A program made the position numbers and the translations under genes. A stretch of DNA of 64,000 nt, taken from Phorcus lineatus. Its lineage: Eukaryota; Mollusca; Gastropoda; Trochida; Trochidae. The stretch is from NCBI GenBank assembly GCA_921293015.1, contig OV121092.1, forward strand, positions 33,425,764-33,489,763. Reading direction: 5' to 3'. This document shows, piece by piece, positions 7,001 through 63,000 of this stretch (positions are counted from its first letter, which is position 1; every line of letters begins with the position of its first letter). A model generated the notes under the pieces. The model made no database searches, was not told the origin of the DNA, and saw only the letters and a program-made list of their open reading frames with translations.

Positions 7001-10000
7001 TGTTACTTTGACTTTGAGGTATTTCAATCCATTTAGACGTCAGCAGATTTTTTTTTTTCATTGTAATTGTTTTTTTAAATTTAGAATTTTTATTTATCTA
7101 GTCTAAGATTTGAATTTTGGAGTCTTCACTTGAACATCCCATTTTTGGAATATAAAAGGCACAGTTTATGTATTTGTGGTGGACAAACATCTTCATTTTT
7201 AGTTTTGTACCTTATCGAAAGATATAAAACTGAGTCTATCTGAACAGATAAGGAACAGAGTTCCACAAATAGCACAAATTGGTGTACACCTTTAAAGTTC
7301 CTTACCTTAAATTACCCACATATTGTCCAACTTGCCTTTTATTGATCTTCCTTATACACTAAATCATTCTGTATATTTAAGTGTTTTTTTTAATTCTAGC
7401 TGATAGTAGAAATGTTTGTATTGTAAATGTAAAAACTGTGCGATTTTGTTTTCACTCAATAGTCTTGTAACTCCATAAGATACCCACCATTGATCTTGAA
7501 TATTAACAAAACCTCTTAATTTTGTTACTAATGCTCTTTATCACTAACAGCTTGAAGTGCGATTTATTTTATTAATGAAAGAATATACCCATTTCAACAC
7601 AATGTTGACATCTGAAGTTAATGGAAATAAGCAACAACATCCTCCCCGATCCACCAAAAACTATTCATGACTTCTTTGAAAGGCATAAAGAAATTGGTGA
7701 GATGAATAGAGAACAACTTCCATGGATTTACAACTTACATCACTTGCTTGACAACGGTGTAAGTATCTACACCAGAACGTTGCAATCCTGCAGTTAAGAA
7801 TTTGCAAATCCATAGAGCTTGTTCTCCATTCAAACATTTATGTAGACTAAGATTTAGTCCAAGACTATTTTTTTTCTAGAAAAATTAAATGTTTTCTTAA
7901 GGTTAACTTCTTGATCTTGAAATCTAGCCTTACTGAACTAGGACCTGGACTGTGTCAAAGTCTCTTATTTTCTACTCAGTCATGATTAATCTTTCACTAG
8001 ATTTCAAGTTGAGCTATAGGATATGACATGCAGTACAAATTTGTTACATCATTACTTTGCCTGGACTCACTGTTGAAATTGTTAGCGTCACATCTGAAAT
8101 AGTGTCAGACCATGTTCACAGACTGAGGTGGAGTCCCTGCGCTCAGCGACCCCAGGTGCGACAGCGGAGGAGGTTGCGGAGATGCAAGACCAGATCAAGA
8201 AGTTTGAGAAGAAGGTCGACCGTCTGGTGGAGGCTCTCGACATCAAGGATGAGGAGACAACTCAGCTAAGTGAGTAGACAGACATGCAGGGTCATGGTCA
8301 CAACTTTGTTAGTGGAAAGGGTCACTGAGTCAAGGTCACCTCTCTGTGACTTGATGGGGGTCATAAGGTAATGGTTATGGCTCTGCGAGTAGACAGGGTT
8401 ATTTGGTCAAGGCCATGACTGTTAGTAGACAGGAACAAATGGTCAAGGCGATGACATTGTGAGTACACAGGGTCAATTGGTCAAGGCGATGACATTGTGA
8501 GTACACAGGGTCAAAAGGTCAAGGCCATGACTGTGTGAGTAGACAGGGTTATTTGGTCAAGGCCATGACTGTGAGTAGACAGGTTATTTGGTCAAGGCAA
8601 TGACTCTTTGAGTAGACAAGGTTATTTGGTCAAGGCCATGACTGTGAGTAGACAGGTTATTTGGTCAAGGCCATGACTGTGAGTAGACAAGGTTATTTGG
8701 TCAAGGCAATGACTCTTTGAGTAGACAGGTTATTTGGTCAAGGCAATGACTCTGTGAGTGGACAAGGTTATTTGGTCAAGGCAATGACTGAGTAGACAGG
8801 GTTATTTGGTCAAGGCAATGACTCTTTGAGTAGACAAGGTTACTTGGTCAAGGCCATGACTGAGTAGACAGGGTTATTTGGTCAAGGCAATGACTCTTTG
8901 AGTAGACAAGGTTATTTGGTCAAGGCCATGACTGAGTAGACAGGTTATTTGGTCAAGGCAATGACTCTTTGAGTAGACAGGTTATTTGGTCAAGGCCATG
9001 ACTGTGAGTAGACAGGTTATTTGGTCAAGGCCATGACTGTGAGTAGACAGGTTATTTGGTCAAGGCCATGACTCTTTGAGTAGACAGGTTATTTGGTCAA
9101 GGCAATGACTCTGTGAGTGGACAAGGTTATTTGGTCAAGGCAATGACTGAGTAGACAGGGTTATTTGGTCAAGGCAATGACTCTTTGAGTAGACAAGGTT
9201 ACTTGGTCAAGGCCATGACTGAGTAGACAGGGTTATTTGGTCAAGGCAATGACTCTTTGAGTAGACAAGGTTATTTGGTCAAGGCCATGACTGAGTAGAC
9301 AGGTTATTTGGTCAAGGCAATGACTCTTTGAGTAGACAGGTTATTTGGTCAAGGCCATGACTGTGAGTAGACAGGTTATTTGGTCAAGGCCATGACTGTG
9401 AGTAGACAGGTTATTTGGTCAAGGCCATGACTCTTTGAGTAGACAGGTTATTTGGTCAAGGCCATGACTGTGAGTAGACAAGGTTATTTGGTCAAGGCCA
9501 TGACTGTGGGTAGACAAGTTATTTGGTCAAGGCCATGACTCTTTGAGTAGACAGGTTATTTGGTCAAGGCAATGACTCTGTGAGTAGACAAGGTTATTTG
9601 GTCAAGGCCATGACTGATTAGACAGGGTTATTTGGTCAAGGCCATGACTCTTTGAGTAGACAGGTTATTTGGTCAAGGCAATGACTCTTTGAGTAGACAG
9701 GTTATTTGGTCAAGGCAATGACTCTGTGAGTAGACAGGTTATTTGGTCATAGCCATGCCGGAGTAGACAAGGTTATTTGGTCAAGGCAATGACTGAGTAG
9801 ACAGGGTTATTTGGTCAAGGCAATGACTCTTTGAGTAGACAGGTTATTTGGTCAAGGCAATGACTCTTTGAGTAGACAGGTTATTTGGTCAAGGCAATGA
9901 CTCTGTGAGTAGACAGGTTATTTGGTCATAGCCATGCCGGAGTAGACAAGGTTATTTGGTCAAGGCAATGACTGAGTAGACAGGGTTATTTGGTCAAGGC

Positions 10001-13000
10001 AATGACTCTTTGAGTAGACAGGTTATTTGGTCAAGGCAATGACTCTTTGAGTAGACAGGTTATTTGGTCAAGGCAATGACTCTGTGAGTAGACAGGTTAT
10101 TTGGTCATAGCCATGCCGGAGTAGACAAGGTTATTTGGTCAAGGCCATGACTATGTGTAGACAGGGTCCGTTGGTCAAGGTCATGACTGAGTACACAGGG
10201 TCAGTTGGTCATGGTCACATCTTGTAGAGTAGGCAAGCTTAAGACACAATTGAAAGACAAGATCATTAAGATGACATTTCTTTGAATAAACAAAGATTGT
10301 AAGATAAAATTAGCCAAGATATCAGTGCATGAGGGAGGGTATCCACCCATTGATTAGACAAGGTCATCATCACATTTGATTATTTCATAATGTATTCTCT
10401 TTGAAAAAGGACACTGTCTGAACACGATTGTTTATTCTTGATTTCTTTCTCACTGGCAGACAAGGAGGTGGAGACTCTCACAGATCAGGTGGAGAAGCTG
10501 AAGATGCTAGTGGAACAGGTGAGATAACGAGCTTCATGTCCACCTGGCCAGTGTTGAAAGAACAGTACCACCTGGTAATGTTTTGTAAGAAAATAAATTG
10601 AGAGGAATAGATAAAATCATTGATAACATATAGGGTGAACATTTTGTGCTGTCATATTGTTTATATGTGCACATGAGCACATATGACTTTGCCGGGCTAC
10701 CAGATCTTAAGCACGATTAACCATATCTTGTCTGTGATATCACAAACAATTGTTGATTATGTCATTGATGTATGCCAATGCAAAGAAACGAGAATGTCTT
10801 CTTTCATGTTCTAAAGAAGTTTGAACTGTATGGAATCAGCTGTAAAGAAAAAAGAGCTCTCAAACAGTTGAAATAGGACACTTTGAAATTGACAAACCAA
10901 AGTGGTTTGACACACTCTTTAGTCCTTTGAGTAAACTTTTATACCCAACAGTCTTCATTTTCAATATTGTATGTTAAGTTTAAGCATAATGATGAGACTG
11001 AAAAGATTATTGCACTTGAGAAAGAACATTTAATTTTTTTTCAATGTTTCATCAGAGCAGGGTTAGAACGCTGGTATGTTGATAATCATTATTTATGTAT
11101 TCAACCACTGTAAATAAATTTACCTACCGGTAATTTATACAAGATCTTTTTTGCTTCTCCTGTTAGCTCAAGCATGAGAAGAATGAATTGAAGGCATTTG
11201 CAGAGCAAGATAAAGCTTCGTCGAAACGCATGGTATGTATTTACAATATGATATAGTTTCAATTAGATGTCCACAGTATTTGAAGAATTGGTCATTTTTC
11301 ACCTCCTTACTTTCATCTTGTTACTTATTTGTTTCAAAATGGGGAAGAATTATGGTTTTTGAAGATCTTTCAGTTGCTGGACTTACATAATGTATCGTAA
11401 GTAATGAGAGATAAAATATTGTCTTTATAATGTCCATTCCTTTTAGATAATGTAGCTAGATATCATATGACTAATATTTATTTTTTTAAGAAAAAATATG
11501 TTTACAAGTCTTGAAAATGCTTTGTAATTTATAAAATTCTGACTTTTTAGTTTTATGTAATCTTCATTATCGCCATAAATTTTGTACACTCTGTTCTCAA
11601 TGCTGAATACATATATTGAACCCACAATTGATATTGCTATGTTTTTATATTGAGGTGATTTGAAGATTTTATACATTTAATTGACATAAGAATTTATCTG
11701 ATTTTTTCTCTGCAGGCTGAGGAAATGGTAAATAATTTGGATAATTTGTGGTTTGACTCAAATAAATTTGCAATTGTTTGCTTAAAAATCATATAGAGTA
11801 CAATGCATGTATTTGATGTTTACTAGCACAGCATGATATCTACAATACCTAGAAATACCATATACATATCCTTATTCATGATTGGAGAAATATTTTGTGA
11901 TTATGATAAAAAAAATATTTTTATGACAAAAAGTGAAGAGTTTGTTGTAAAATGTCTCTCATTCCACATTTATACATTTTTGCAAAATGTTGTAAATGCG
12001 TAGCAAAATGTTGTAATTATGTTGCAATGCGTAACAATATGTTGTAATAATGTTGTAAATGCGTAGCAATATGTTATGATTGTGATTCAGAATATTGTGG
12101 AAATGTTGCCAAATGTTGTGACTTTTAATCATTGTGTGAATGTGTTGCAAATACTTAAATTTTTTTGACCATGTAGCAAGTATTTTATGAGCCCATATAA
12201 CTTGTTATCAAATGATTAACCTCGCACCCGCTGATAATGACTTGACACATCGCATGACCATTACTTTGATCTTCACTGTTGTTAACCAAACATATTCATG
12301 GGTGTGATCACATTAACTCAAAGTTCTAACATGTATTCTGCATGCATAAAGTGAAACTGGAATATCACCAACTTTATACCTGTCATAATCTTTAAAACTA
12401 ACACACGGAAACAAAAGAGGGAGGGTTTTAAAATTTGAATATTCAAAGGGGCACAGAGTATGTTGTTGGAGTGAAATATGTCAAACTTAAAATAGTGTTG
12501 TTTTATCGAGAAGTAGTAATTGTTTCAGAAAATCAGTATCCTAATGCTTATCAGTTTAGTATAGCAAAAGAAATTGTTGAGTGTTATGATTTGTGATCGA
12601 AAACCAGACTGTGGTGCCCGCCAATGATTTAAATGTAATTTCGGAAACTTATTTACAGCAGACACAAAGACAAACATTGGTTAATAGTGTTAAGAAGGTC
12701 ATTTAACTAATATACATGTTAAATGGACACATAATTTCAAATTCTTAACATTTATAGGGCCGTTTTCTGATTATCAGTGAAAACAAGAAAATATCATAAT
12801 TTTGGCATTTCAGAGATAAAGTCTCATGCAAGTAAGATGCAAAATTTTTACTCAACTCAGGTCATAAGGTATTTTGGCTCTCACAATAGCCATTTAAGAA
12901 TCTTGAAACATACTCTGTGTCACTTTAAGCTAAAGATAACTGGTTTACTACTGACACTGTCCAACATTATGCTGTTTGCTGTATGGTTCTTGTTCATGCT

Positions 13001-19000: not shown

Positions 19001-22000
19001 TGTGAGTGCTACAGGCGCTGAATGAGGACAGGAAGAATCGACAAGGAGCATCAGATGCAGAGAAGGAGAAGATCAAACTGCTGCAGGACCAGAAGAAGAT
19101 ACTCGAGGAACTCCTCGCTAAGGTCAGTCTGGTCGTATAAAGATAAAAGTTGAGCAGCATTAGAACCAATACTTCAGTCTGTTTCAGGGTGGGGGTGGGA
19201 TAGCGCAGTGGTTAGCGCGTTCGGCTTCGGATCAGGAGGTCCGTTGTTCAAATTCCGCCAGAGGCTAGGCAACTTTGTCTGCAGAAGAGAACTGTTCTAC
19301 ATGCAGTTTTGCAATGCTACACTGAATTTCAGCGCAGTACTACCCATGGTATGCTAGTTCCAGCTAATGCTCGCAGGTTTCACTGCAATGCATAGCCACA
19401 TGGTGTTGCGGGCTTTCTCCCTGCAATAATACTGGCAGCCGCGATATAAGTGAAATACTCTTGAAAGCGGCATTAAACCCCAATTCACTCACTCACTGTT
19501 TCAAGGTTAAAATGGAGCAGTCAAGCATGTTTGAATTCTGATCAAGAGTAAATAGGTTGGAATCTTGCAGGGACCTTGTCTGTTGAAGAGAATATCATCA
19601 GAGATTCAAATCACAAAGCAACCTTAAGTGATATCGACCTTTACTCCAGTTCTTTAACACTATACATTATACAATTATAGACTGGTGATGAGGTCAATAC
19701 CTGTTTTTATAGACCCGAGGAAAGCAATATTGACAGAAATAAATACGAAAAGGAAAGAAAAAACTAGTCATGAACAGCAATTTTGATCAATTGTTCAACA
19801 TGACGGTCAAATGACGTCACGATAACAATAGGATGACGTCATGTAACAACGGTTTGACGTCATTATGTCTATTTCAAGTCAATATCACTTTTGGTCGGAC
19901 TCGAGTGAAGTCAATATGCTTTTCTGTCGACTGACACGTGACCGCTTCTCGACCAATCGGATTGCTGGAAAAATAAGATCACATAATTAATGGCATTATA
20001 CCTAAGCCACTTAGGATCAGCTCTGTTATTTGTGTAATTTGTGAGTTTCGTTCTGTATTTGGTGACCTTTGAGCATTGTTGTGTTGAAATTAGGTGCATA
20101 AACATTGAATATGTATATTTATTACCTATTGGGGTTCATAATTTACATCGATGCCCTAGGGCAAAATATCACTTTCATTTATATCACAGTAAAACTGTGC
20201 GTCTAGCAGAACTGTGTGAAATACTTGATTCTGTTTGGCTACTGTGAATGTCATTCCTCCGTTTTGTACTACTGATTTTCAAACACAAACACAAAAGCAT
20301 GTCTCTGTCCTGATATGAACTATGAATATGATGCTACCGTAATTTGAAGATAAGTCCTCTACCTTGATAAGCTCATCATTAAGAGGCTTTTATACATTGA
20401 ATTTTGCTATGAAACATCATGGTCAATGCACATCATATTTGTAAACAGGAGAGGTCTAAAAACGGTGCCGGGAGTCAGGATTCAGGTGACGTGGAGAAAT
20501 TGAGGAAGAGTGAACAGAGGATGAGAGAGGAAGTTATCAGGTACATACCAAGGATGGGTATCGCTCCCTATCATTGTATTGCACTAAATACTGATAATTC
20601 CGTGCACTGTTAGTAGATACTGTAACGCTTTAGTTCAGAATTTAACACAATAATTCTCTTACGACAGATAAACTGTAATTCTGAGCTTTGAGTTGATTAT
20701 TCCTTTTCTTACCCAAGGTCAAATTTAAGGTACTTTTGGAAAAATACTTTCGTTGTGGCGAAACATCACTTAATCAAAATAAAGAAGTTGTTTATCCATT
20801 AAAAAGTCATTATTCTTCATAACGCTAACTTCTAAATGCCATTCAAAGAGGTCTCTCTTGCTCAGCTGATGTTGTTAAGTTCTACATAGACACTGGCCTC
20901 CTTAAGTTTCTCCTCAGCACACCTAAGCTTGATGTTATAACTATGGGGCTAATTAATGATGCACTTAATATAACTTAGAGAGGTATAGTGAAAATACACC
21001 AGGGTTTTACTTTTCTGTTATGTGTTGCTCGGTGTTCCAGACTAAAGAAGGAGATCGAGCGCACCAACAGAATCTGGGAGAAGAAGTTTGCCATTCTTCA
21101 GCAGAGGTTTGTCTGATTTACTCCTTATTTGTCCCTAACTTTTGGATTCAATATGATTTCAAAGATGCATTATTAGTGTCCATAGACAATCTATTATTGA
21201 TGGCCCCCTGATAAAGGCTTTCTTGTAATATAGACTGCAGGATGCTGAATTGAACAAAAACCAGTTGAAATGTTTTTGGATTTATGGAGATATTATATTG
21301 ATCTTATTTTGAGGTTAGCATTAACTGAAACAGTAAATAAGCAGAATTTATTTTCAAAAGTATGATATAAAAAAAGCGATAAAACCACAAGATTTTTACA
21401 CAGTGTTTCTGACAGGAAAGAAGATGAATTTTGACTTTTTTCACAGCTTGCACGCTCTGAAGGATGAGAGTTACCTGAGACAGACTCTGCAGAGGCAGGC
21501 AGCAACGTTACACCAGGCCGCCGTCAGCTACAGCGTGAGTCTAGATACTTGTACAGATAGAGAAGCCTCACCAACGACTAATCTGCTTCTTAGTAGGGCT
21601 TCCATTGGTACTCGAGTACTTCTTTACCCAAAGACTTGATAAAAGATTAGTTGAAATTTGAAGCTATACCAATGTCGCTATCAGTACAATAAAGAAGTTG
21701 ATTATCCATAAAATTTCTTATCTTCCTTATACTGACAACTTCTTTAATGCCACTCAAACAGTTCTCGATTTCTGGACGGAAAAAACTTATATTAACAATT
21801 GTGATGGAGCTACCTCTGTTTGGAGAGAATGGGATATTGAGGAAAGATGGCATACTGTTGCTGATACAATATCCTCATAACCTAGTGACTGACCTTGTGT
21901 TTACAGGTTGATTCCCCAGTTGGCATCATGCCAGCCAAAGTAAGCTCCAGCTCCAGGAAACCTCTGGTAAGAACCAAGACAATTATCTTCAATATCATCA

Positions 22001-24081
22001 ATTATCAATTTGCTTTGTCAGTAAAGCTTAAAAAGTTTAACTTCATACCACTCGGAGAACATAATTATTTAAAATTACATTCTATGTTTGTAATCACATA
22101 TCTTAAAAAGTACAAAATCTTGGACTTTTAGGGTCAGCTCTTTACGCAGCAAGCAGAAGTGCTGAAAGCACAAACAACTGATCCACTGGTCCTATAGGGA
22201 TCTTTATCTAAGTACAATCATGTTTTGATTGTGATGTACTGAGACATAGATATATAGATATTTGTCTCTTGTTTATCATCAATGCCAGGGTCCTATTTAG
22301 AGGCATCCCAATAGGAGATCTTTTAGACAGGTCACCGTCATTTCATATTCTTTAAAACTTCTTGGTGCTAGGAGGTACTAGCACCTCTAAATGATCTTTG
22401 AGCCATGCAGAGGAACATCCCAAAGAGGATGAAGCCTCAGTTACTAGATTAATAGCAATTCTAAATGATCTTTGAGCCATGCAGTAGAACATTCCAAAGA
22501 GGATGAAGCCTCAGTTACTAGATTAATAGCACCTCTAAATACTCTTTGAGCCATGCAGAGGAACATCCCAAAGAGGATGAAGCCTCAGTTACTAGATTAG
22601 TAGCACCTCTAAATGATCTTTGAGCCATGAAGAGGAACATCCCAAAGAGGATGAAGCCTCAGTTACTAGATTAATAGCACCTCTAAATACTCTTTGAGCC
22701 ATGCAGTAGGACATTCCAAAGAGGATGAAGCCTCAGTTACTAGATTAATAGCACATCTAAATGATCTTTGGGCCATGCAGTGGAACATCCCAAAGAGGTT
22801 GAAGCCTCAGTTACTAGATTAATAACACCTCTAAATGATCTTTGAGCATACAGTGGAACATCCCAAGGAGGATGAAGCCTCAGTTACTAGATTCATAGCA
22901 AATCTAAATGATCTTTGAGCCATGCAGTAGAACATTCCAAAGAGGATGAAGCCTCAGTTACTAGATTAATATCACCACTAAATGATCTTTGTGCTATGCA
23001 GCCGGACATCCCAAAGAGCGGGAGATCTCACCACAGTCACGGTCCTGGAGGGGAGAGGGACTACATCAGCTACACGGTCTCAGCTCCCAGTGGAAGGGGG
23101 ACAGCAATCTTCTCTGTTGATGGTCAGTTACTTGTTGTCTTTGTCTTTGCCAAGCGCAGTGAATTATTCAGAGACTGACATCTTTCATAAAAATTTTACA
23201 AAAATTATTTTGGATGATGATAAGAAGCTTCTGATATTTGTAACTTTTATCATATATCAACACCTGTTTTTAAAAGTTACAAATATCAGAACCTGCCAAG
23301 GATTTTTTCTTTATTTTATGAAGGAGGTGAAATTCTGTTCATCATCCGAAATAATTTTTGTTACATTTCCGGAAATAATAATTATAAATACTTCACTGTG
23401 CTTGGCAATGATGTCATCATGTTTATGACATCATAGCATACTAATGTCAGTACTTGATGATGTAAAACCATTGAGATGTCATTTACTTGAAGAGGGCAGG
23501 ATATTGTTCAAAATATACTCTCAAAGCATTATCTCCTAGTTATCGCCTGATCTCCAATAAGCAACATCTCCTGTGAAAAACAGTTTTAGATGATAAATTA
23601 TTTAGCTGCATAGTTGTCACAGGTAAGAATGCAATTGTCAATGGTCTTTATAACAGTGAAATTGTTCTTCAAACTTCCTCTGGAATAACAGGGATTAGGA
23701 AAGGCAGGGGCCATGGACAATTTTTCACATTGGATGAAATAATGGCCCATTCAAATTAGAAATCTTACCATTGCTACTTAAAGGGGAATGGCCAATTCAA
23801 AATTCTGAAAATGACTAAAATCCCTATTAATGGCCCATAATCAAAGGTGTCTTTCCCAATCCCTGAATAATAAAGTGATATCTAACTGTATATATATCTA
23901 TCCTTAATTCTCCCTCCCCACAGAGAACCAGGTGATGTCGGACGACCAGGACATGCCCGAGGACACGGTGCCTCTCCCCGCCCCCCCTCCCCAACCTCGT
24001 AACCAGGGTGACTGCGGGGAGGAAAGTCGCCCCTCGTCTCAAGGACACGTAGTCGTTCTGCCGTCTGTTGAGGCTCTGTGA
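933..24081 (+). CDS. Coiled-coil protein, C10orf67-like (DUF4709-type N-terminus), 17 exons
   Basis: Joining 17 exons with consistent phases gives an open frame of at least 519 residues ending in TGA at 24079-24081. Exons: 933-1053, 1882-1973, 2564-2615, 3580-3654, 4946-5122, 8122-8269, 10460-10518, 11167-11232, 11716-11727, 16802-16867, 19015-19122, 20449-20540, 21041-21106, 21447-21534, 21907-21966, 23002-23122, 23924-24081. The N-terminal block (KIGFFSMDRSTQTE, then a helical DVAELRRDINF segment) matches my memory of vertebrate C10orf67, which has GYFSTDHATQTD there. The middle is charged coiled coil (KLDMEKMMEEK, KLLQDQKKILEELLAK). A conserved-looking WEKKFAILQQSLHALKDE block follows, then a Ser/Gly/Pro-rich tail. 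No signal peptide or membrane segment is visible. Function is unknown. The start is open: ATG 913 or 973, or an upstream exon. Identity is from memory of the family; the gene model is read directly. Confidence 0.7.
1882..1973 (+). CDS. C10orf67-like exon b
   Basis: 30 codons plus 2 nt, starting DVAELRRDINFTKHVMQADY. TTTTCCAG acceptor and GTGAGT donor. Amphipathic helix of the DUF4709-like region. Confidence 0.85.
2088..2340 (+). mobile_element. SINE, 5'-truncated copy
   Basis: Same body as the 19191-19495 element, from GCCCGCCAGGGGCTCGGCAA through GAGAACTGTTCTACACGC to the AACCCCAACTCACTCACT tail. The tRNA head is missing except for its last bases. Confidence 0.85.
2564..2615 (+). CDS. C10orf67-like exon c
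   Basis: 52 nt, YCRINERVAELEKLHES. Phase 2 in, phase 0 out. Donor GTGAGT, acceptor ATGCACAG. Confidence 0.85.
3580..3654 (+). CDS. C10orf67-like exon d
   Basis: 25 codons, RVESVRKAYRQQLANAIARL then ASLFD. Donor GTAACT is weak but keeps phase 0. Confidence 0.8.
3745..4485. mobile_element. Compound fold-back element, family E, copy 1
   Basis: Two arms (about 3790-3930 and 4340-4460) are inverted relatives. Each arm is itself a palindrome built on TTTAATACTATTTTTATTAA and TCGTTAATGATTAGGTATCA. The centre holds TACGGCAATATTAAACTAG and two TGACGT sites. Confidence 0.7.
4946..5122 (+). CDS. C10orf67-like exon e
   Basis: 59 codons, coiled coil rich in Gln, Arg and Glu (KYKELQQTIQRNESVIHMLR). Acceptor CTGTTCAG, donor GTGGGT, phase 0 on both sides. 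Confidence 0.85.
5123..8121 (+). other. Large intron of the C10orf67-like gene
   Basis: AT-rich intron with no transposon I recognise apart from short simple tracts. It holds one exon-like open segment at 7618-7758, listed separately. Confidence 0.5.
7618..7758 (+). CDS. Candidate cassette or alternative first exon in the C10orf67-like gene
   Basis: An open segment runs from an AG at 7616-7617 to a strong donor GTAAGT at 7759. It encodes 47 codons (LMEISNNILPDPPKTIHDFF, then ERHKEIGEMNREQLPWIYNL, then HHLLDNG). The length is a multiple of three and phase 0, matching both neighbouring exons. Base composition is more coding-like than the surrounding intron. The polypyrimidine tract is poor, so the ATG at 7621 could instead begin an alternative first exon. 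It could also be chance or a transposon remnant. Confidence 0.35.
8122..8269 (+). CDS. C10orf67-like exon f
   Basis: 49 codons plus 1 nt. Glu/Lys-rich helix (QIKKFEKKVDRLVEALDIK). The donor GTGAGTAG is the sequence copied throughout the adjacent minisatellite. Confidence 0.9.
8270..10220 (+). repeat. Intronic minisatellite starting at a 5' splice site
   Basis: About 50 units of ~30-37 bp with the core GTAGACAGGTTATTTGGTCA followed by AGGCAATGACTCTTTGA or AGGCCATGACTGTGA. The first diverged units abut exon f directly, and many units keep GTGAGTAGAC, the exact start of the intron. Higher-order repeats are visible: a ~359-bp block (8751 and 9110) and a ~179-bp block (9723, 9902, 10081). The unit reads no long frame. 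Confidence 0.95.
10460..10518 (+). CDS. C10orf67-like exon g
   Basis: 59 nt, (N)KEVETLTDQVEKLKMLVEQ, heptad-like coiled coil. Phase 1 in, phase 0 out. Donor GTGAGA. Confidence 0.9.
11167..11232 (+). CDS. C10orf67-like exon h
   Basis: 22 codons, LKHEKNELKAFAEQDKASSK then RM. Acceptor CTCCTGTTAG, donor GTATGT. Confidence 0.85.
11716..11727 (+). CDS. C10orf67-like 12-nt microexon
   Basis: TTTTTTCTCTGCAG, then GCTGAGGAAATG, then GTAAAT. It encodes AEEM in phase 0, extending the coiled coil. The acceptor is excellent and the donor fair. Skipping would remove four residues without a frameshift. Confidence 0.6.
11985..12115. repeat. Short degenerate tandem repeat
   Basis: Three or four imperfect units of 30-40 bp sharing GCGTAGCAAAATGTTGTAAT-type sequence. 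Confidence 0.6.
12445..12928. mobile_element. MITE family A (GGCACAGAGTATGTT termini), copy 1
   Basis: About 480 bp bounded by AAAGGGGCACAGAGTATGTT and its inverted counterpart AAACATACTCTGTGTCACTT. There is no transposase-like frame. Other copies are at 47332-47986, 51889-52341 and 58325-58808. The internal motif TTATTTACAGCAGA and a segment ending TAGGGCCGTTTTC recur among copies. Confidence 0.8.
13565..14470. mobile_element. MITE-like family B with TGACGTCA palindromes, copy 1
   Basis: Begins ATACAATTATAGACTGGTGA, forms a local hairpin with the inverse sequence near 13645-13670, and holds several TGACGTCA or near-identical sites (13747-13800, 14395-14430). It shares the GACCTAGGGCAAAATATCAC block near 14370 with copy 2 at 19660-20190. 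The outer limits are approximate. Confidence 0.6.
16802..16867 (+). CDS. C10orf67-like exon j
   Basis: 22 codons, LEKQKLDMEKMMEEKIRLAR then ES. Phase 0 both ends. Acceptor ACGTATTTCAG, donor GTGAGT. Confidence 0.9.
17200..17645. repeat. Repeat remnant with ATTGCAATAC motifs
   Basis: Repeated and inverted ATTGCAATAC/GTATTGCAAT sequences occur at about 17235 and 17550-17600, ending in AGCTATACCCATCCTTA. A related AAGGATGGGTATCGCTCCC block occurs at about 20552. Probably a diverged short transposon; limits unclear. Confidence 0.4.
18102..18542 (-). mobile_element. MITE-like family C with 147-bp palindrome, copy 1
   Basis: Inverse orientation of the copy at 55788-56164. It starts TTATCATCCAAAACTGTG, carries ACGTCA/TGACATCA repeats at 18205-18310, then TTTTGGATTATAA, and ends in a near-perfect fold-back palindrome at 18396-18542 (AGAATCTCACCC...GGGTGAGATTCT). 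No open frame. Confidence 0.75.
19015..19122 (+). CDS. C10orf67-like exon k
   Basis: 36 codons, coiled coil ending KLLQDQKKILEELLAK. Phase 0. Acceptor GTGCTACAG, donor GTCAGT. Confidence 0.9.
19191..19495 (+). mobile_element. tRNA-derived SINE, full length, with target-site duplication
   Basis: The head is tRNA-like: GTGGGATAGCGCAGTGGTTA fits an A box, and TTGTTCAAATTCCGCC is a decayed B box. A shared body (CAACTTTGTCTGCAG, AGAGAACTGTTCTAC) follows, then a tail AACCCCAATTCACTCACTCA. Flanking 12-bp copies CTGTTTCAGGGT (19179-19190) and CTGTTTCAAGGT (19496-19507) look like a target-site duplication, as expected from LINE-mediated insertion. It lies 68 bp past the exon k donor. Confidence 0.9.
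19660..20190. mobile_element. MITE-like family B, copy 2
   Basis: Shares ATACAATTATAGACTGGTGA, AATGACGTCACGATAA, TTGACGTCATTATGTCT and CGTGACCGCTTCTCGACCAA with copy 1 at 13565, plus the CCCTAGGGCAAAATATCAC block near its end. The second hairpin arm of copy 1 is absent here. Confidence 0.65.
20449..20540 (+). CDS. C10orf67-like exon l
   Basis: 30 codons plus 2 nt. Ser/Gly linker (ERSKNGAGSQDSGD) then VEKLRKSEQRMREEVI. Donor GTACAT. Confidence 0.85.
21041..21106 (+). CDS. C10orf67-like exon m
   Basis: 66 nt, LKKEIERTNRIWEKKFAILQ then Q. First half of the WEKKF...SLHALKDE block. Donor GTTTGT. Confidence 0.85.
21447..21534 (+). CDS. C10orf67-like exon n
   Basis: 88 nt, (S)LHALKDESYLRQTLQRQAAT then LHQAAVSYS. 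Likely the most conserved C-terminal segment. Acceptor TTTTTTCACAG, donor GTGAGT. Confidence 0.9.
21907..21966 (+). CDS. C10orf67-like exon o
   Basis: 20 codons, VDSPVGIMPAKVSSSSRKPL. Ser-rich tail. Phase 0, donor GTAAGA. Confidence 0.85.
22380..23001 (+). repeat. ~74-bp tandem array ending at a 3' splice site
   Basis: Eight to nine units of ~74 bp (CTAAATGATCTTTGAGCCAT, then GCAG, then GGAACATCCCAAAGAGGATG, then AAGCCTCAGTTACTAGATTA). The last unit runs into the real intron end and exon p start (GATCTTTGTGCTATGCAG then CCGGACATCCCAAAGAG). Every unit thus carries a copy of the acceptor and the first exon bases. Confidence 0.95.
23002..23122 (+). CDS. C10orf67-like exon p
   Basis: 40 codons plus 1 nt, low-complexity Ser/His/Gly-rich (PDIPKSGRSHHSHGPGGERD). 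Its first ~17 bases resemble the tandem units upstream. Donor GTCAGT. Confidence 0.9.
23186..23600. mobile_element. MITE-like family C, copy 2 (diverged)
   Basis: TTATTTTGGATGATGATAAG, then a shorter fold-back (TTCTGATATTTGTAACTTTT and its inverse), then TCATCATCCGAAATAATTTT, GATGTCATCATG repeats, and an end AGTTTTAGATGATAAAT. Related to the copies at 18102 and 55788. Confidence 0.6.
23686..23868. mobile_element. MITE family D (CAGGGATTGGGAAAG termini), copy 1
   Basis: About 180 bp from CAGGGATTAGGAAAGGCAGG to CTTTCCCAATCCCTG, with internal AAAGGGGAATGGCC. AATAA flanks both sides. Further copies are at 39970-40125 and 54712-54890. Confidence 0.75.
23924..24081 (+). CDS. C10orf67-like terminal coding exon q
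   Basis: 52 codons including TGA at 24079. Acidic then Pro-rich (MSDDQDMPEDTVPLPAPPPQ) and ends VVVLPSVEAL. Acceptor CTCCCTCCCCACAG. Confidence 0.9.
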
Positions 24082-26863: not shown

Positions 26864-26968
26864 ACCTGCGAGTTCTGCATAAATACTCATCAAATTTGGA
26901 AAGGACACATGAAAATATAAACCTGCGTGTTCTGCATAAATACTCATAAAATTTGGAAAGGACACATG
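26864..26968. repeat. 57-bp direct tandem duplication
   Basis: Two adjacent copies of TTCTGCATAAATACTCATCA followed by AATTTGGAAAGGACACATG differ at only a few bases. Confidence 0.85.
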
Positions 26969-29900
26969 GTAATTTAACCTTTAGGAACAGTTACGTGGTA
27001 CTATTTGCCTACTTATTGTGCAACTCACATGGATTTGTTGAACTCAGGAGACCCTGTACTAGACCCGGTAGTAAGTCCCCGCACTCAGCAAGGCATATTT
27101 GTATATTCATCACTGCATAAAGGACCTTTTCCTTGACACTGACTACTGGCGGTATTGCTAGTGATTGAGATGATTAAAACAGCTAGAAGCTCAACAAAGA
27201 TATATCTATCAACAGAACTATATACTCATTTGTACACTCTCATTCAATGCTCCTGATCATCACTGATGAAATAAATGTGCAACAGCTCGGCTTGGGTAAA
27301 ACTTATTTCAACAAGGTACTTTCAGTAAATTCAAAATCATAATGATAACCCATGTATAAAGCACGTTTTCACATGCACAAATATACAGGAAATAGTCCCC
27401 GTAAATGATTGTACTACTCGGCAATAAAAAAAGCGTTTAAATTCCTTTCTTCTGTGACAAAATAGTTGCAAGACTTTCCCTATATATCTATTTCAACATT
27501 GATCCAAACTTTTCTATTATTTTATCACAAATGCAAGTCAAGACACCAAAACTTAAACTAAGGTCATAAATAAAATATATTAACCATTAGCTTAAACCGT
27601 AATCATATATTTACAAAATTTGAACATTTCGATGGTAAGAAAATGGAATGATAACCCTCAAAGTTATTGATAACAAATGGTTCAAGTGCAAAGTGCTGAA
27701 GGTGAAAACAATAGGTGAAAGAGAATTGAGAAAACTTAACAATCCAAGTAGCGACAAAGACTTTTGGTCACAAAACAGTTTAAAACAGACAATATAATTT
27801 ACATGAATCAAAATGATATTTATGGTATTCAATGGATGTCAATAAAGAAAAAAGTAAAGTACATTTATCTTTAAAGTTTCTTTAAGAATTTACAGTGGTT
27901 CAGTCATTGAAATATTGTAAATTTCCTCATGAGTTAAACGCTGATTACAAAAAAAGACAGACTTCTTGAAGCACTGAGAAATCATGCAAAATTCTTCTCC
28001 AAAACTTAACTTTCAGCATCAAACAATATACTTAGATGAAAGAAACTTGAAAGATCAAATATAAGCTTGAAATCCTCACTAAAATGAAATAGGGCCTACT
28101 ACAGACAGTCATATACACAAGTAACAGTAATTTTGCATATTGGATGTGTGTTATACATAAAATCAGCATTCATCTTTAATGTACTTAACATATAATAATA
28201 AAGATGATAAAGTAACACAAGAAATGAAACGATATTATTGCAATACAGATAATGAATTCAAAATCATTTAGAGCCAACAGAACACAATCATATCAACATC
28301 TCTTGCAAAAGTGTAACAGCATTAACTTAATTAAAAACAACACTTTAGAAACTTATCATAAGATTTCTTTTTATTCAGTTTAAATTGACAATGACAGCAT
28401 TCTTGCTGCAAATTAACAATAAATATACTATTACATCATAATGGAATCTGAAAACATCCCATTCTTGATATATAATCTACATTTTAGCTAATGAATGTAT
28501 TTGCGCCAAATCATTTCTTGAGCGGCAAATTACTGGCATAAAAAGCTTATAAACAAAGAGAATATCAGTAATTATGAATTTGCCAGGAATATTCTATATT
28601 TGAAGAAAATTGTAAAATTCTAAAAAATAACGTTTAAAAGATTTTTGTCCCTACTTTAAAAAAAAACAATGGAAAACATGTTAAGTTAAAGAATTTGCCC
28701 TTTATGCAGTGGTCCCCTATTAAAGCAGCTTACAAGTGTATGAACTAGTAACACATCAAGGCAATACAATATTTCACCAAAACAACAACTACAATATAAG
28801 CAAATAAAATACTGAAAGCTGTATCTTTAAAACATAGGTTTCTTAAGAGTGGTTAGTCTCAGCGACATCATCAACTTTAACAAATGGTACATTTTCACAG
28901 CATCAACACAAAATGCATATTTAGGTAGATGGGGAAGAGAGAGAGAGAATGAAGAAGTCAATAAAGCAACAGCAGTGTAAAGAAGCATCTTATAAATAGC
29001 AACTTCAAAAATGATAAAAAATACCACAAATAATGAATTAAGTTTTTAAGAACTAAAATGAAAATGAAAATATATGATTATATTGATTCAATGTTATCGA
29101 GAGTATGGCTTAACATCAGAGATCAAATTCCAACAATTATCAACTGCTTGAGTCAGAATTTAACCTTGAACTTTTACTGCAATCTAAAGATTATCTATAG
29201 AATTTTTAGCTTGCATTGTACCAGCTTATAAAATGACCCCCAATGAAGATCAGCTTTTTATAGTTTACAAACTTTCAGCTATTATTACTGAATATACAGT
29301 TAGAATCATAAAAAGCAGATGTAAATTAATATTTATCAATGCCTATTGCAAGCCTATAGGCTTAAAGCATTGTTATCATGTTATCAACAAAAAGTACAGC
29401 TTTTATAACAATTCTCTTTTTCATATAGCCAAACTTTCAACCTTTGTCTGAGATGCTTCATGTAATTAGTGTCTTGTGTTTGATTTTGTCACTAAAGGGG
29501 AACGGTTTCCTCTTAAAAATGAACCATTTTTATATTTCAACATAAGACAGGATATTTTGATTAGTGTGCAACTTGGTGGGATGAAATATGACTGATGGTT
29601 TATTTCAATAAGGTAAGCAAGAAAAATACTTTGACTACAACATGCAGTATGCATTTCAGCTAATTTACAAAGAACTTTGGTATAAAGTACAAGTTTAATA
29701 TAACATCATCAGTAAAACAATCTTGTATCCACACATATGGCTTGATAAAAATATTTCAACTCTAATATAAATCTTATGAACATTTGAAAATGAATGACGT
29801 CAACATATCACCACAACAGATTAGTTTTCTTGAACTTACATTGAAATATTGTTTAATTGCAACCAACTAGTACTTCATTAACTACCAAGAAGCCAATCAA

Positions 29901-32372: not shown

Positions 32373-49097
<16,725 letters not shown>

Positions 49098-49122
49098 GTT
49101 TTTTTCTTCATTTAAAGATCGT

Positions 49123-50954
49123 CTGCAGAGAAAAATAATATAATAGTGAGTCATTTTTCAAGGGATATATTGTTGAAGAAACAGCAAAGATATTGAAAAT
49201 TCGAACATCATTGGTCGTTGCAATACACAGTATGGAAGTTACTACTTCAATCTTTTTTTTAAATGAGTAATGACATTTCATCAACAAACTTGGTTGTTAG
49301 CATTATCCGCATATTGTGACTTAGAATTAGGCGGGATAGCACAGTGGTTAGCATGGCTTCAGATCAAGAGTTCCTGGGTTCAAATCCCGCCAAGGGCTCG
49401 GTAACTTTGTCTGCAGTAGAGAACTGTTGCACATGCAATAAGGTTTGGGTACAATTTCAGGACAGTTCCAGACATGTATCGTTCGCTAGTTCCAGCCGAT
49501 ACTCGCAGATTTCACAACAGCACATAGCCATAATAGTGTTGCTGAATTTCTCCCTGCAGTAGCGCTAATACAAGTGAAATACTCTTGAAAGAATTTACAT
49601 ACTTTAACAATTAAAAAGATAATCTAACTGAAATTTTCATAACAATATTTAGCATTTATACATATAAAATTTGACACATTTAGTAATAGGCATTGTGTGG
49701 CTGGGAAGTTGTCATCTGATAACTAATGTTATAAATGAGTGATGTGGGCTTAATGCAACATGATGAAAAAATTAAACTGCCGTAACCCAGGGTCACACAT
49801 TTCCATATTGTAAAGAATGCACTGGTTCGTTTAATTTACACAGCTGCTACAAAACGACTGACGTTACAGTAAAATAATTAGCAAACAATGAAATCTAATA
49901 CAATTAAAATTTCAGGTACCATTAATTTGATACAGCTAAAGGATACTTGATTTCTTTTCAGAGTGCACTTAAGGTTAAAACCTTCTATTTATGTGCCCAT
50001 TTTTGTAAGATATGGGCTTCACTCGATTTTACATTGAAAAAAAACCAGTTTTGTTGATGAAATAGGCTTTGAACTATGCACTTTTTCACAGTAATCGTAC
50101 ATAAAATTATAAATCTTATTATTTGAACAAGCCCCACAGATTTAGTGTCCTGAAGTGAAAAAAAAAGTTCTCCAACAGCAGAGGTCTAATGTTATTTGCA
50201 ATTATGATATTGATATAGGCAACTTGATGCTAATCATCTTGAATACTTTCATCAATTTGAAATCGAATTAATCAATTGAAATAAATGTATAATTTCTTCT
50301 TGCCACAAGCGTTCTATATTTATGATATTTGAAATAGATTCAGAAAATAGGACCCAGCATAGTTCAAATAATAATATCATGTACAATGAGATCGTTTACT
50401 ACGATGACATCGATTTCAATTACAACTTTCTCATTTTGCATAATGACACATAACGGTTATTAACCATGTACGTAACTCATTATATCATTAACGTAAACAA
50501 CGCTGTGACAGACCTGTTTTCTGGAGCAAGCTTTCGGAAACAAGCACTTGCAACAAGTAACAGGCTCTAACTTTGACAGGTGTGTAATTATCAATCAAGC
50601 ACACAAATTAGTTTTTAGATAATTGCAATAATTCTCAAATAAATTATCAATAAATGCATGTGCATATTTTTAAGGAAAATACACGTGAAACTCGTACTTT
50701 CAGAATATCACTTCGGATTTCACCGTCCCATCCGGCATGAAAACAAGCAACATGGCCGATGAACCTTTACGTAGAGCACAAAAATTGCAACGTGTCACGA
50801 ATCGCCCAGCTACGTACGCAAAGCGTGGTGACGTAATTCACAAATCGTCTACCTGGGAAGTGGTAGGGGAAATAAAACCGGTGATCGAAATTAATTTACA
50901 ACAGTTGATTAGCAACGGAACTAAGGATAGCACGGTTAGCTTGAAATCAACAAG
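49123..50954. promoter_or_regulatory. Divergent spacer between ZMYND11 and FTCD
   Basis: It must hold the ZMYND11 5' non-coding exon(s) and the promoters of both genes. No TATA box is clear. The right part (50690-50954) is less AT-rich and has TGACGTAA at 50830. The left part is occupied by a SINE. Confidence 0.5.
49331..49590 (+). mobile_element. tRNA-derived SINE, 3'-truncated
   Basis: GCGGGATAGCACAGTGGTTA head with a B box GGGTTCAAATCCCGCC better preserved than in the 19191 copy. Same body, ending at TGAAATACTCTTGAAAG without the ACTCACT tail. Confidence 0.88.
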
Positions 50955-57000: not shown

Positions 57001-60000
57001 CAAAAAGGAATTTCAGCTGTGATTCCCAATAGATTTTGTAAGGAACATCTGAATGATGAAACGATTTCCAGTCGCTGTACGCTGTTGCCACCAGTTTTCC
57101 CCACTCTAAAAGACAATTTCTCATCTCGAACATTATGAAGTGAAATTAATTCAAATGAACTTGCTTGAAATATTTTACAAGTGATCATAAATGTCACCGA
57201 TCCAGTAATGATATAACACTTTCAATAGGATCGATAGTTTACCTAACTTCTGATAGCGTTTTCATGTTCCTCATCAAAAAAGTACTGTTGCATAGGTGAC
57301 TGTTGTGATGCATCGATAGTTCATTATATTGGTACACTCTTACCTTTATTGTTAAAATCTTAACAAGTCTGATTAATCTGATAATAATAATTTTCAAAAG
57401 TAGTAAGGAATTTGTAAAAACGGCCTATTAATTGTTAAATCTTATAGAGAAATAAGGATGTTTCATCTCAGGGCTCCAGATAAGATGCGTATCTGCGTAA
57501 AATACGCACAGGTAATTCGGATATACGCATTAAAAATGATATCAATGAGTGACAGATACGCAGAACTTTCCCAGAATACGAGTTTACAGGAGTAATCATG
57601 ACATGTCAAACTAAAGTTTCATTTCTACATGCTTTATCTTTACATCTCGAATGGTAGTCAACTTGATGCCAACCTGCATGAAAACAAAGATTACCGATAT
57701 CATATTTCGTCAAAGAGAAATCACTTGTATATTTACAGATTAAACGTGTGGAAAATATAATCAACGACTTACATCGACAAAGATGCTAACTTGGAATAAG
57801 GATCTGATAATGATAAACCTTGAAATACTCCTAGTTTTTTTCATGTGGTAATTTTACTCCTCAATTTATATTTTGAGGAGTGAAATACCCCTGTGTCCAA
57901 ATAATTATCTGGAGCCCTGCATCTGGAGAAATCCCCATTGTGTAATTACCCTTCATGTTTTATGTACATATTCCCAGGTCATAGAAGCAATTGCATCAGC
58001 TATAGCTGGGACACATGGCTGTACAGTATTGGACGTTGATCCTGGGATCTCAACCAACCGTACAGTGTACACCTTCGTTGGTAACCCCGTCACTGTGGTA
58101 GAGGGCGCTCTCAACGCTGCACGTGCTGCCTACCATCTCATCGACATGCGACAACATTCTGGTGAGTTTTTCAAATCTTTGAAAATTAGGATTTAGATTC
58201 TATTGCTTATGTCTTTGTTAGCAACTGCCAGGTAATCTTATAAGTCATCATCGATTGATAAAGTTGTTTACCTGTGTCCCGAAACTCCAAATGCACAAAA
58301 CACTAAGGTAGTCTTACTGAATTTAAAAGTGACACAGAGTATGTTTTCATAGATTTTGTATGTGGCTTGAATAGAGTCAAAATACCATTTGTCCTGAGGT
58401 AAGTTCAAATCGCCTTTCTAAAGTTTCATTTTTAAGTTAAAACTGTCAAACTTACCATATTTTTTGTTTTCAATGATAAATGATGAATGGCCATATGAAA
58501 GTTAAAAAGTCACAATTCTTCTTCACATTTACATTTTTATGTGTTAAATGACTTACTTGACCCTATCAACCCCTATTTGTCTTGCTATCTGTCATATATA
58601 AGTTTCATACTTACGTTTCAGTCAATGGCTTGTGTCATTGTCCGGTTTTCGATCATAAATTATGACTTTTACTTGTTTATTGTCACTAAGGTGAACTGAT
58701 AAGCACTAAGATTCTTATTTTCAGAAACACCCACTATTTCTCTATTGAATAACACCTTTTATGAAGTTTACATATTTGACTCCAACAACATACTCTGTGG
58801 CCCTTTAAGGATGGCACTAAGGTTTAACTTAGTGTTAGATTGTTTTGTATAACAAACTCCATATCTTCATGTAATTTTTCCTGAACATGTATGGTGTTTT
58901 ATGCCTACCAGGAGAACACCCGCGGATGGGGGCTCTGGACGTGTGTCCATTCATCCCAGTTCAGGACACAACAATGGAGGACTGTGTTCAGTGTGCTCGT
59001 GAATTTGCAGAGAGAATGGCCGAGGAGATGTCACTTCCAGGTACCACTCACTTTGAAATTTAAAGAGGATATTCTTTGTATATTTCCTGCATCAGGTCAT
59101 ATGTTGATTGTATTGACTCTATCAAGTGACAATCACCTCAGCAACAGTATTATATCCTGCATAAATGCTGCTTGTCATTATGTCGAAGCAGTGCTAGTTG
59201 GAATTTAGTTATTAGTCACTAGCACTGTTAAGTGTACAAGTACTTTGCTTGCTGGGTGAAAGTAGTATTTGTACACATGTGCATGTGATATTTATGACAT
59301 AGGTTACTTTTCTGCTCATCAGACCTATAATGGCAGATCACAGTGGTGTATCCTTGATTCAGGGATCCTATTGGATTGATCTCAGTGACAGATCCAGAGG
59401 AATGGCAAATTAGGGTCCATTTCCCCTTTGAACCTGTGACACCCCCACCCATCCAGATAAGAGTGTGTTTAAATCAAATCAAAGACATGTTTTTGCTATA
59501 ACTTACCTGACAGGTGAGGTATATTTTTACCTATATTGCAGTGTACCTATATGGAGAAGCCGCCACCAGTGACAAAAGGAAGAAGCTGTCAGACATCAGA
59601 TCAGGGGAATACGAAGCTCTTCCAAGCAAGGTCAGAAATGAGCAACGTGGAAATCTTTAGATAGTTTTATCACATTTCAAAAGACATTCCATGGTTTTCT
59701 TGAAATTTTCTCTGCTTTGATTTGTTCTCAAATACCATGAATGCTGATAAAAATTTAAAACAACTCACACCTATATCCTCAAATGACAAATAAACCACAA
59801 TTGATATTTTTAATGAAACTTGAAAATCATTATTCAAAATGTGCAGAATTAAGCCATAATCAGACATTTTTTATTACATGAATACTTATGTTATATATGT
59901 CCCATCAAACACTTTCAACTCAAAAAATTTCCCATGTCCGCTTTGGGTTGAATTAGTATGAATATGAAGCTGATAAACACTGAAAAAGAAATAAATTCAA

Positions 60001-63000
60001 TACTGTTGATTACATGAAATCTGACATTAACTATAATCCGAAATTTCACATTGATGCACAATGCACTGAACCAAAAGCAAAATTCAATGGTACTATTGTA
60101 GTTGTGAACCATTTCAAGCCATAAATATATACCCTTAATTATTTTATTCAGGTGAGTAATGAAATGTGTTTTAGGTCCATATATGTCATTGCAGCTTTCT
60201 CAGGCAGAATGGAAACCAGACTTTGGCCCAGCAGACTTTGTGCCTTCATGGGGAGCTACAGCAGTCGGCGCAAGAAAGTTCTTGATTGCCTACAACGTGA
60301 ACCTGCTGGGTACCAAGGAACAAGCCCATCGCATAGCACTCAATGTTCGGGAACAGGGGCGCGGGAAGGACCAGGTACAACTCCATTTTAATACTTAGAG
60401 GGAAATCATATAGAGGTTTATATTGATCATATGATGCCTGTTTGCAAAATATAACTTTATGAGAAACCATTTCAATGAACTAACTAATTTTCCATTCATA
60501 GAAATTTTACATTAATTTCCTGTATTCATTCATGATTGTCAATAGTTCAAGGATTGTTTTAAGTAATTTTGTTATTAGATCAAGGTCGTTAACTTTAGCT
60601 AATGTTTCAATATAGAATATTCACATTTTTTAACTTTTATTGTAGAGATAGTATGACATGGCCACTCATGTAATATCCTCTATGTATTACCCTTATAGTA
60701 AAACAAAAGTAGTGACATATTTTTCATATGTCCCTCTGCACATACAGTTTTTCATAGCAATGATTTATTCCCATATTTGGTTGTCTGTGGCGTCAAACAG
60801 TTGTTCACAATGTAAGCAAGGCAGGCGATTGTAAGGGTAGCAGGTCGTTTCACACACTCAACCAGCCTTTACGGAATATCCCTGATAACTTTCAGTACAA
60901 CCAATGAGATTTAGTTTTCTTCTCTTATGCCTGATTCTAAAAGATACCTGTAACTCCAAATTTGCTGATCAGCCACATTTCGTCACTGAGGATATGCGGT
61001 ATGAAGAAGCAGAGTTCAAAGATCCACTAACTTAAAGACATCTTCTCTTTTTTGTTATATTGTTGAATTGTGCCATGTTTTTTTTTTCTGGGATCAATTT
61101 TGCCTCAAATCAAATCAAATTCTTAGAGTGACTGACTCTCATTACAGCCGGGCAGACTGACAGAAGTACAGGGAATAGGCTGGTATCTAGAGGAAGCCAA
61201 CATGGCCCAAGTGTCCATGAATCTCACAGACTTCGAGAAGACTCCCATCCACACAGCTTATGAGGAATGTGTCAAGGATGCTGATGTGAGTGCAAAAACA
61301 ACTGTATTTATTAGTTACGTTGTTTATAGATGAAAAATAGTCAGGGATCATTAGGTTAGTCTGCTTTTGCCTGATGCGTCCTCATGACTTGTGTCAGCAG
61401 TCTTCAGCTTTCCGAAATAATATTTTCGATGTTAACTAGTTATGGCTCCTGAATTTAAATGTAAGATATGCCACTAGATCAATATTTTCTTTAAAAAACC
61501 TTGGATATCTTCAACACTGAAAATATTAAAGTTCCTTATCTGTTCCGTGATCTAGGAACTGAACCTGGCGGTGGTTGGGTCCCAGATTGTGGGCGTGGTC
61601 CCCCTGAAGGCGCTGCTGATGGTGGCTGAGTTCTACATGGAGAAGGAAGGGCTCTTCATCCTGGAGGAGGACCAGAAACTCAGACTGGTAAGTACAGACT
61701 AAAGTCACAGTCTTTACCAACATTTGGGATTTATTATGGTTATAATTTTCCCTGTGAAGCAGGCTTGTACGTGCAGACTAAAGGCACACTTTTTGCCATA
61801 ATTTGGGATTTATTTGACATATTTCTGATTAATTTTCCCGTGAAGCAGGCTGGTACATGCAGACTAAGTGTCATAATTATTTCCTTGTCATTTTTGACCT
61901 TTAAGTTGTTTGATTTTCTTTGTAACAACTGAACATGGACTTTCTGCTCTTGAAAAAGGATTTTAAGGCACTTCAACCTCTGTGAGGACATAGCTTGTGC
62001 CAGTCTCTCTCACTGGCAAATTTTTAGCATGCTTCAACAGTTTATCACAAGTGCTTACCAATTGTTATTAGCTTATCTATGGTTCATTAATCAATATGAT
62101 TATATGAATATAAATAAAAGTTGCTTTTGTTTTGTGATAACATATGTACATTTAATCTTTTCTAAATCACTGTTGTTCAAATTTGAGTTATTCTACTGAT
62201 GTTCCTTTTACCTATTTCCCCTTTCTTATATTTTTCATTTTTATTTTACATTCTTATTTCAAGGTGGTATTGGCTGAATTACCAACCAAGCAATATTTGA
62301 CAGTATGTCACTGTCACTCTGGAAAATAATGTTTTTGGTTTTTATTTCAGGTCATCAACAGACTTGGGTTGAACTCATTAGGTGTTTTTAGTCCAAAAGA
62401 GAGAATTATTGAGTAAGTTGTTCCTAAGCTTTTTCAACATTGGGACTTGCAAACTAAAATAAATTGGTAATATGTAACAAAGTAGAATGGTAGTTCAAGG
62501 ACTTTTATAAAATTGGAAGTTGGTGGTTTAGCTTTCAAATGAAGTTGGAAGATGAGGCAACCCATTTCATTGCGATTTCTCTATGAAAACGAGGGGAGGG
62601 TATGGTTTGAAACTATTGGAAAAGAGTTGATCGAAGTGATAGCGTCACATTTAGACTAGTTGAAGTGCCTTAAAATCATTTTTCAAGTGCAGAAGGTCCC
62701 TGTTCAGTTCTTCACAAAGGTAATCAAACAACTTAAAGGTCAAAAGTGACAAGGAAATGATTGTGTTCTTAATGAAAATAAGGCAGCTGTTTGGGCATTC
62801 TTTATAAGAAATATTAAGACAAATGTAGCTGCAAATTGAGGGTAACTTTAAGACTATTGTCAAAATATTTTCTAAACTATTGAAACATTTAAAATAGTCA
62901 TTATATGATTATATATCCAATTTAAAAAAATATCATCCAAACTTCTATATAGATAGGCATGTTTTGGATAAATTGGATAAAAACATAAAGATGCATGATA

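Follow-up and report, generated by a model that had tools for sequence, protein, structure and literature searches.

Tandem arrays at splice junctions in a gastropod genome window resemble the mirage minisatellites of amphioxus

Why should tandem arrays inside introns lie against coding exons? The question is raised by a 64,000-nucleotide (nt) stretch of the genome of the gastropod Phorcus lineatus (GenBank assembly GCA_921293015.1, contig OV121092.1, forward-strand positions 33,425,764 to 33,489,763; this whole stretch is called the window, and all positions below are counted from its first nt). Here, four intronic arrays, numbered 1 to 4, lie at or near splice junctions of three unrelated genes: a C10orf67-like gene (arrays 1 and 2), ZMYND11 (array 3) and FTCD (array 4). 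A sequence-only reading of the window had proposed that all four were seeded at these junctions. Our analysis favours, with a probability of roughly 60%, the interpretation that they are mirage-type minisatellites, which would have begun as chance duplications touching a junction, been amplified into the intron and been tolerated there.

Junction sequence in and near the arrays

The splice junctions of the window were mapped by tblastn and spliced comparison with the Haliotis proteins P0121 (H. rubra), P0001 (H. asinina) and P0242 (H. rufescens). The best relatives of the draft proteins, which are rough joins of open reading frames, are from abalone (ZMYND11, H. asinina; C10orf67-like, H. rubra; FTCD, H. 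rubra and H. rufescens), and per-exon identity to the Haliotis proteins is 48-100%, with 60-95% in most exons. On these grounds a lancelet origin of the window, considered in view of the mirages described from lancelets, was rejected in favour of a gastropod related to Haliotis. The resulting map comprises 36 introns, equal to 72 junctions, with 48,368 base pairs (bp) of intron in total. All 72 junctions are GT/AG by construction of the search, and a few of those distant from the arrays may be some bases off. Judging from the coding continuity with the Haliotis proteins, the mapped sites are probably the splice sites in use; at arrays 1, 2 and 4, this continuity depends on the site next to the exon.

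Tandem sequence was detected by a diagonal self-comparison of the window that was blind to the genes (ungapped, offsets of 10-400 bp, with a threshold higher than any value reached in 12 locally shuffled windows). As a result, 10 tandem clusters were found. Seven of them are at least 100 bp long, six being intronic and one, at 26864-26977, lying between the C10orf67-like gene and ZMYND11; the three shorter clusters, all of them in introns, are 72, 141 and 178 nt away from a junction. All four arrays are recovered in this way, with edges 0, 17, 19 and 7 nt (arrays 1 to 4) from mapped junctions, and the splice map confirms that two donors and two acceptors in three unrelated genes are involved.

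To compare junctions with introns, a query of 20 exon and 25 intron bases from each of the 72 junctions was aligned to the rest of its intron, with 200 shuffles as background. The three highest-ranking queries are those of array 2 (junction 23002, z 21.5), array 4 (61687, z 9.5) and array 3 (32495, z 5.7).

Array 2 (22376-23018, plus strand; Tandem Repeats Finder (TRF), self-comparison and splice model) has a 74-bp unit in about 8.7 copies, and TRF places it at 22379-23018. Its last copy holds the acceptor 23001/23002 of a C10orf67-like coding exon (23002-23122, plus strand; tblastn and splice model) together with the first 17 nt of that exon (23002-23018), which thus begins within the array. 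The exon opens with PDIPKSG, where the Haliotis proteins P0121-P0123 have PDIPRSG. The best intronic copy matches the junction at 69 of 77 positions over -60 to +17, and the 17 exon nt are matched at 13-14 positions in all eight upstream units. Array 4 (61681-61867, plus strand; alignment and self-comparison) begins 7 nt inside the FTCD coding exon that ends at donor 61687/61688 (61556-61687, plus strand; tblastn with H. rufescens P0242 and splice model). It consists of three copies of a junction segment, the real one included, spaced by 79 and 86 bp, the last being partial; the two intronic copies match at 45 of 55 positions over -7 to +48 and at 18 of 22 over -7 to +15, each including the 7 exon nt. 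TRF reports only a small part of it (61792-61835, score 51). The tandem unit clearly spans the exon-intron boundary in arrays 2 and 4, by 17 and 7 exon nt respectively, with one acceptor and one donor thus affected.

Array 3 (32515-33165 by both TRF and self-comparison, minus strand) has a 30/90-bp unit and ends 19 nt upstream of the acceptor of the last coding exon of ZMYND11. This exon, which encodes the MYND finger (32376-32495, minus strand, first exon base 32495; Haliotis comparison and splice model), is identical to H. asinina P0001 at 40 of 40 residues. A copy of its acceptor junction lies at 33368-33388 (minus strand, by alignment), with 19 of 21 positions matched, 13 intron and 8 exon nt covered and 33375 as the first exon-like base; its score was reached by one of 200 shuffles with the 45-nt query and by none of 2,000 in a separate test. 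A partial resemblance to the junction, GTTTCAATGTTTCAACTG, was also seen by eye just past the distal end of the array (33178-33195, minus strand).

Array 1 (8270-10235, plus strand; TRF and self-comparison), about 2 kb long, begins at the first intron base after a C10orf67-like coding exon (8122-8269, plus strand, donor 8269/8270; tblastn with H. rubra P0121 and splice model). It has a unit of about 37 bp with longer nested periods and 52 anchored copies, and the donor GTGAGTAGACAG, the first intron bases, is repeated in register with the unit. With a query covering -10 to +45, the donor match has p = 0.008. Similarity to the junction copy is highest at the far edge, in the copy at 10189 (0.78, against at most 0.69 for the other 50 copies), a pattern to be expected where copies at the ends are spared homogenisation. 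TRF reports periods of 37, 72 and 359 bp over 8377-10188, a nesting that fits repeated rounds of expansion.

The copied exon bases encode PDIPK (PDIPR in Haliotis) in array 2, CF of CFNCEEE in array 3 and RL of QKLRL in array 4. These exon edges are common to Haliotis, which argues that the exons came first and that in arrays 2-4 junction sequence was copied into the intron. The direction of copying cannot be read from array 1, which has no exon bases. In their home introns, the junction queries of arrays 1, 2 and 4 score 31, 114 and 60, against 24, 23 and 21 in the other plus-strand introns, so that these arrays look like local duplications, with a small gap for array 1. The low scores in the other plus-strand introns of the window give no support to a dispersed intronic element as the source of these three arrays.

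Tandem arrays are often mis-assembled, and on this general ground the arrays might be assembly errors. Their units, however, are set apart by point changes and short indels, which simple duplication of reads would not be expected to give, and the window contains no N; we find this explanation scarcely credible.

Array position and growth up to the exon

With array lengths placed at random in the introns (up to 20 nt of exon overlap allowed, 20,000 draws), 0.37 of the six intronic clusters of at least 100 bp are expected within 20 nt of a junction, and four are found there (P(≥4) = 0.0002). When the three shorter clusters are added, the count is four of nine (P = 0.0016). If the edges are taken from TRF, for its four arrays with a score of 500 or more, P is 0.016-0.027 at tolerances of 20-110 nt and no array lies near a junction (0/4) at 10 nt; alignment-chosen edges give P = 0.00005 at 20 nt, the choice of these edges having seen the junctions.

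The positions could also be due to ordinary minisatellites that arose at any point of an intron and whose growth was halted at the exon by purifying selection, with junction bases swept in later by slippage. A simulation of growth until an exon is reached gives 1.75 of six arrays abutting (P(≥4) = 0.056), which explains much of the abutting. In their own introns, the four arrays abut in this model with probabilities of 0.92, 0.66, 0.54 and 0.34, and the two arrays that have no tie to a junction do so with just 0.03 and 0.06. It also fits this model that array 1 reaches the exon without entering it, that array 3 halts a little short of it, and that coverage shows no junction enrichment: clusters take up 8.2% of intronic bases, and four of 72 junctions are inside a cluster or no more than 20 nt away from one.

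The two junction-free arrays, both found by TRF and self-comparison and without assigned strand, are a short tandem cluster in a C10orf67 intron (11986-12089, 753 nt from the nearest mapped junction) and an array with an 82-bp unit in a ZMYND11 intron (42616-42978, 730 nt from the nearest mapped junction; 42605-42978 and 4.6 copies by TRF). The latter was considered as a hidden junction array and rejected, its best score against all 72 junctions being just 23, at a junction of another gene. On the plus strand, this array (region 42616-43060) is followed by AGCAAG/GTAAGC, a good donor-like site, and an unannotated antisense exon may lie there.

The sequence-only reading had argued that chance would rarely place arrays in this way. 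This holds against random placement; the argument had omitted the two junction-free arrays, and it is much weakened by the growth simulation. The window was, moreover, put forward because of the pattern itself. Position alone is weak evidence, because of the growth null, the lack of a coverage excess and this choice of window, and abutting was dropped as proof by itself after the growth-and-stop simulation. Unit content is the stronger evidence. An array truncated at an exon has no reason to hold exon-edge bases or an in-register donor, so the exon-edge bases in all eight upstream units of array 2 and in both copies of array 4, as well as the register of the donor in array 1, count against growth until the exon, an origin that we consider unlikely for the four arrays.

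Several features of the arrays themselves, in addition to the growth simulation and the two of six intronic arrays without a junction tie, weigh against a junction origin of all four. In array 3, the core ends 19 nt before the exon, and the junction copy lies 203 nt past the distal end of the array and is not a unit of it. The copies of array 1 hold no exon nt, and with the 45-nt query its donor match ranks only ninth of 72 (z 1.5, p = 0.09). The far-edge trend of array 1 is not seen in array 2. The proposal that each array abuts an exon and carries copies of its junction is thus borne out for arrays 2 and 4; array 1 repeats a donor without exon nt, and array 3 falls 19 nt short, with its copy outside. 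Likewise, the duplication of coding nt into the intron supports seeding at the junction in arrays 2 and 4, and for arrays 3 and 1 such seeding is suggested.

Array-free junctions, decoy sites and surrounding sequence

If splice-junction DNA were prone to duplicate, as had been proposed, the junctions without arrays should be of interest as well. After masking of the clusters, these 68 junctions were set against 184 usable points out of 204 placed at random in the 34 introns that reach 300 bp or more. Local duplication was no more frequent at the junctions, z exceeding 3 at 4 of 68 junctions and at 9 of 184 points (Mann-Whitney p = 0.43). The 68 junctions behave like random points, indicating that in this window there is no sign of general junction duplication beyond the four arrays, and the proposed proneness finds no support here. 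Candidate traces of old mirages at 37484, 34928 and 3580 (z 4.1, 3.9 and 3.6) were dropped, since array-free junctions match random intronic points.

This comparison bears on the idea of a genome-wide mutational process aimed, in this lineage, at splice-junction DNA, for example through breaks, R-loops or fork stalling at the step in composition between exon and intron. Such a step exists in the window, with a guanine-cytosine content of 0.497 in 33 internal exons versus 0.333 in introns, and the idea would also suit four arrays at or near junctions of three unrelated genes within 64 kb, improbable under random placement, and the similar arrays known from several amphioxus genes. Against it stand the result for the other 68 junctions, no more duplicated than random intronic points, and the choice of the window for its pattern; we regard such a process as improbable.

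The arrays fill their introns with sites that resemble splice sites, scored here with a matrix built from the window's own junctions. In array 1, GT stands at the donor position in 19 of 52 copies, the real donor included, and the 18 decoy donors score 5.6-8.0, against 6.5 for the real donor (5.4 when it is left out of its own matrix); donor-like sites occur at 12.3 per kb in this array versus 2.8 per kb in other introns. All eight upstream copies of array 2 have AG, with scores of 2.4-9.3 against 12.0 for the real acceptor, and both intronic copies of array 4 have GT, with scores of 6.5 and 4.7 against 10.8 for the real donor.

It had been proposed that these decoys are either tolerated or used. 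If they were used, the spliceosome would sample them, yielding non-productive transcripts or tuning splicing, and the fairly strong and dense decoy donors of array 1 and the AG present in every upstream copy of array 2 speak for this. However, the remaining 33 of 52 copies of array 1 are without GT, the decoys of arrays 2 and 4 score below the real site, and no sign of selection was seen; use of the decoys appears very improbable. The loss of GT in array 1 was itself considered as a sign of selection and dropped, the copies without GT being mostly a few repeated variants. Conceptual translation meets a stop within 15 codons for all eight decoys of array 2 and, for the decoys of arrays 1 and 4, a few codons beyond the end of the exon, so that in arrays 1, 2 and 4 the exon-proximal junction copy alone avoids an early stop. 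The ZMYND11 decoy acceptor before 33375 stays open for 66 codons before a stop. Tolerance of the decoy sites is supported by inference: there are decoys of fair strength, and in arrays 1, 2 and 4 their use would introduce stop codons.

The surroundings of the arrays hold further repeats. Three stretches, at 2061-2340, 19223-19493 and 49355-49530, form a dispersed family with 61-92% identity between them. Two of the three copies have, near GTTCAAATYCCGCC, a stretch that we take to be a tRNA-like B-box, and a common tail that ends in TCACTCACT is present in two; the family looks like a tRNA-derived short interspersed element (SINE). No tRNA gene was found in the window by ARAGORN, including at this SINE-like family, and no Rfam family was found in it at the gathering threshold. 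Two more dispersed pairs, 13832-13916/19903-19987 (92% identity) and 23409-23490/56038-56119 (85%), may be mobile elements. The gene neighbourhood may be old, as the C10orf67 and FTCD matches seemingly lie on one contig in H. rubra and likewise in H. rufescens, and the ZMYND11 and C10orf67 matches seemingly on one contig in H. asinina.

Mirage minisatellites and a possible origin of the arrays

The sequence-only reading knew of no described system of this kind, and one is in fact described: minisatellites that span exon-intron boundaries, called mirages, have been published for amphioxus (PMC3087553, PMC3902484). Loci named there are Adh3, the globins BflGb6 and BflGb9, troponin C and PGBD5 (PMC3087553, PMC3902484), and two more amphioxus loci are cited in the globin paper (PMC3087553). 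The name comes from Adh3, which also showed somatic instability (PMC3087553). In the globin mirages, splice signals are present in many but not all copies, reverse transcription PCR suggests normal splicing, and BflGb6 haplotypes vary in repeat number; the authors proposed that mirages are able to create introns (PMC3087553). In lancelet PGBD5, the first repeat abuts a 5' splice site (PMC3902484).

The arrays of the P. lineatus window share with these mirages units that span the boundary (arrays 2 and 4), the involvement of both 5' and 3' boundaries, and splice signals in many but not all copies, and array 1 is like PGBD5 in that its first repeat abuts the 5' splice site. They differ in that they belong to a gastropod, have an exonic part of only 0-17 nt and are known from one sequence; in addition, the junction copy of array 3 lies beside the array instead of being repeated through it, and array 1 extends over about 2 kb with units that lack exon bases. 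In structure, arrays 2 and 4 fit the definition of mirages, array 1 comes close to PGBD5 with its abutting repeat, and array 3 has mixed features.

Introns are reportedly also gained by tandem genomic duplication, in which an exonic AGGT segment is duplicated to give a new intron. That process likewise copies splice signals; here, in contrast, the intron pre-exists and the exonic part of the array is just 0-17 nt. Among the matches listed in our literature searches, which left most subscription journals uncovered, there was no mollusc report of such arrays. The available text of a cone-snail gene-structure paper mentions just simple repeats in introns (PMC3862624). In abalone, intron 3 of a TSSK1-like gene carries a minisatellite with a 27-bp unit and a length that is polymorphic between individuals; it is intronic like the arrays described here, and the available text does not place it at a splice junction (PMC6905558). 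In humans, VNTR6-1 in TERT intron 6 is an intronic tandem array with a unit of similar length, 38 bp, and no splice-junction origin of its units is stated in the available text (PMC11830802).

For a mirage-type origin of the four arrays, we envisage that replication slippage or template switching gave rise to a small tandem duplication which by chance spanned or abutted a junction. Through unequal exchange or slippage, it would then have expanded into the intron, whose length is presumably nearly neutral, and the exon-adjacent copy would have stayed in use, presumably favoured by exon definition, while the decoys drifted. In our opinion, the arrays would have no function beyond being tolerated. 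A wider claim may be drawn from the comparison with lancelets, namely that in some animal genomes tandem arrays arise preferentially at splice junctions, and that lancelet and gastropod mirages arise from one junction-centred duplication process that fills introns with decoys and feeds intron lengthening and gain; we hold it to be rather improbable.

In summary, a phenomenon known from lancelets as mirages is here seen in a mollusc. If the arrays were merely minisatellites that fill introns up to the exons, the growth-and-stop null would be the right control for claims of this kind. If mirages were common in a mollusc too, and not just in lancelets, they would cease to be a lancelet oddity. 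A handful of genome assemblies together with RNA-seq would then be enough to ask whether exon-intron boundaries are prone to duplication, by what means splicing passes over a dozen good decoys beside the true site, and whether arrays of this type contribute to the growth and gain of introns.

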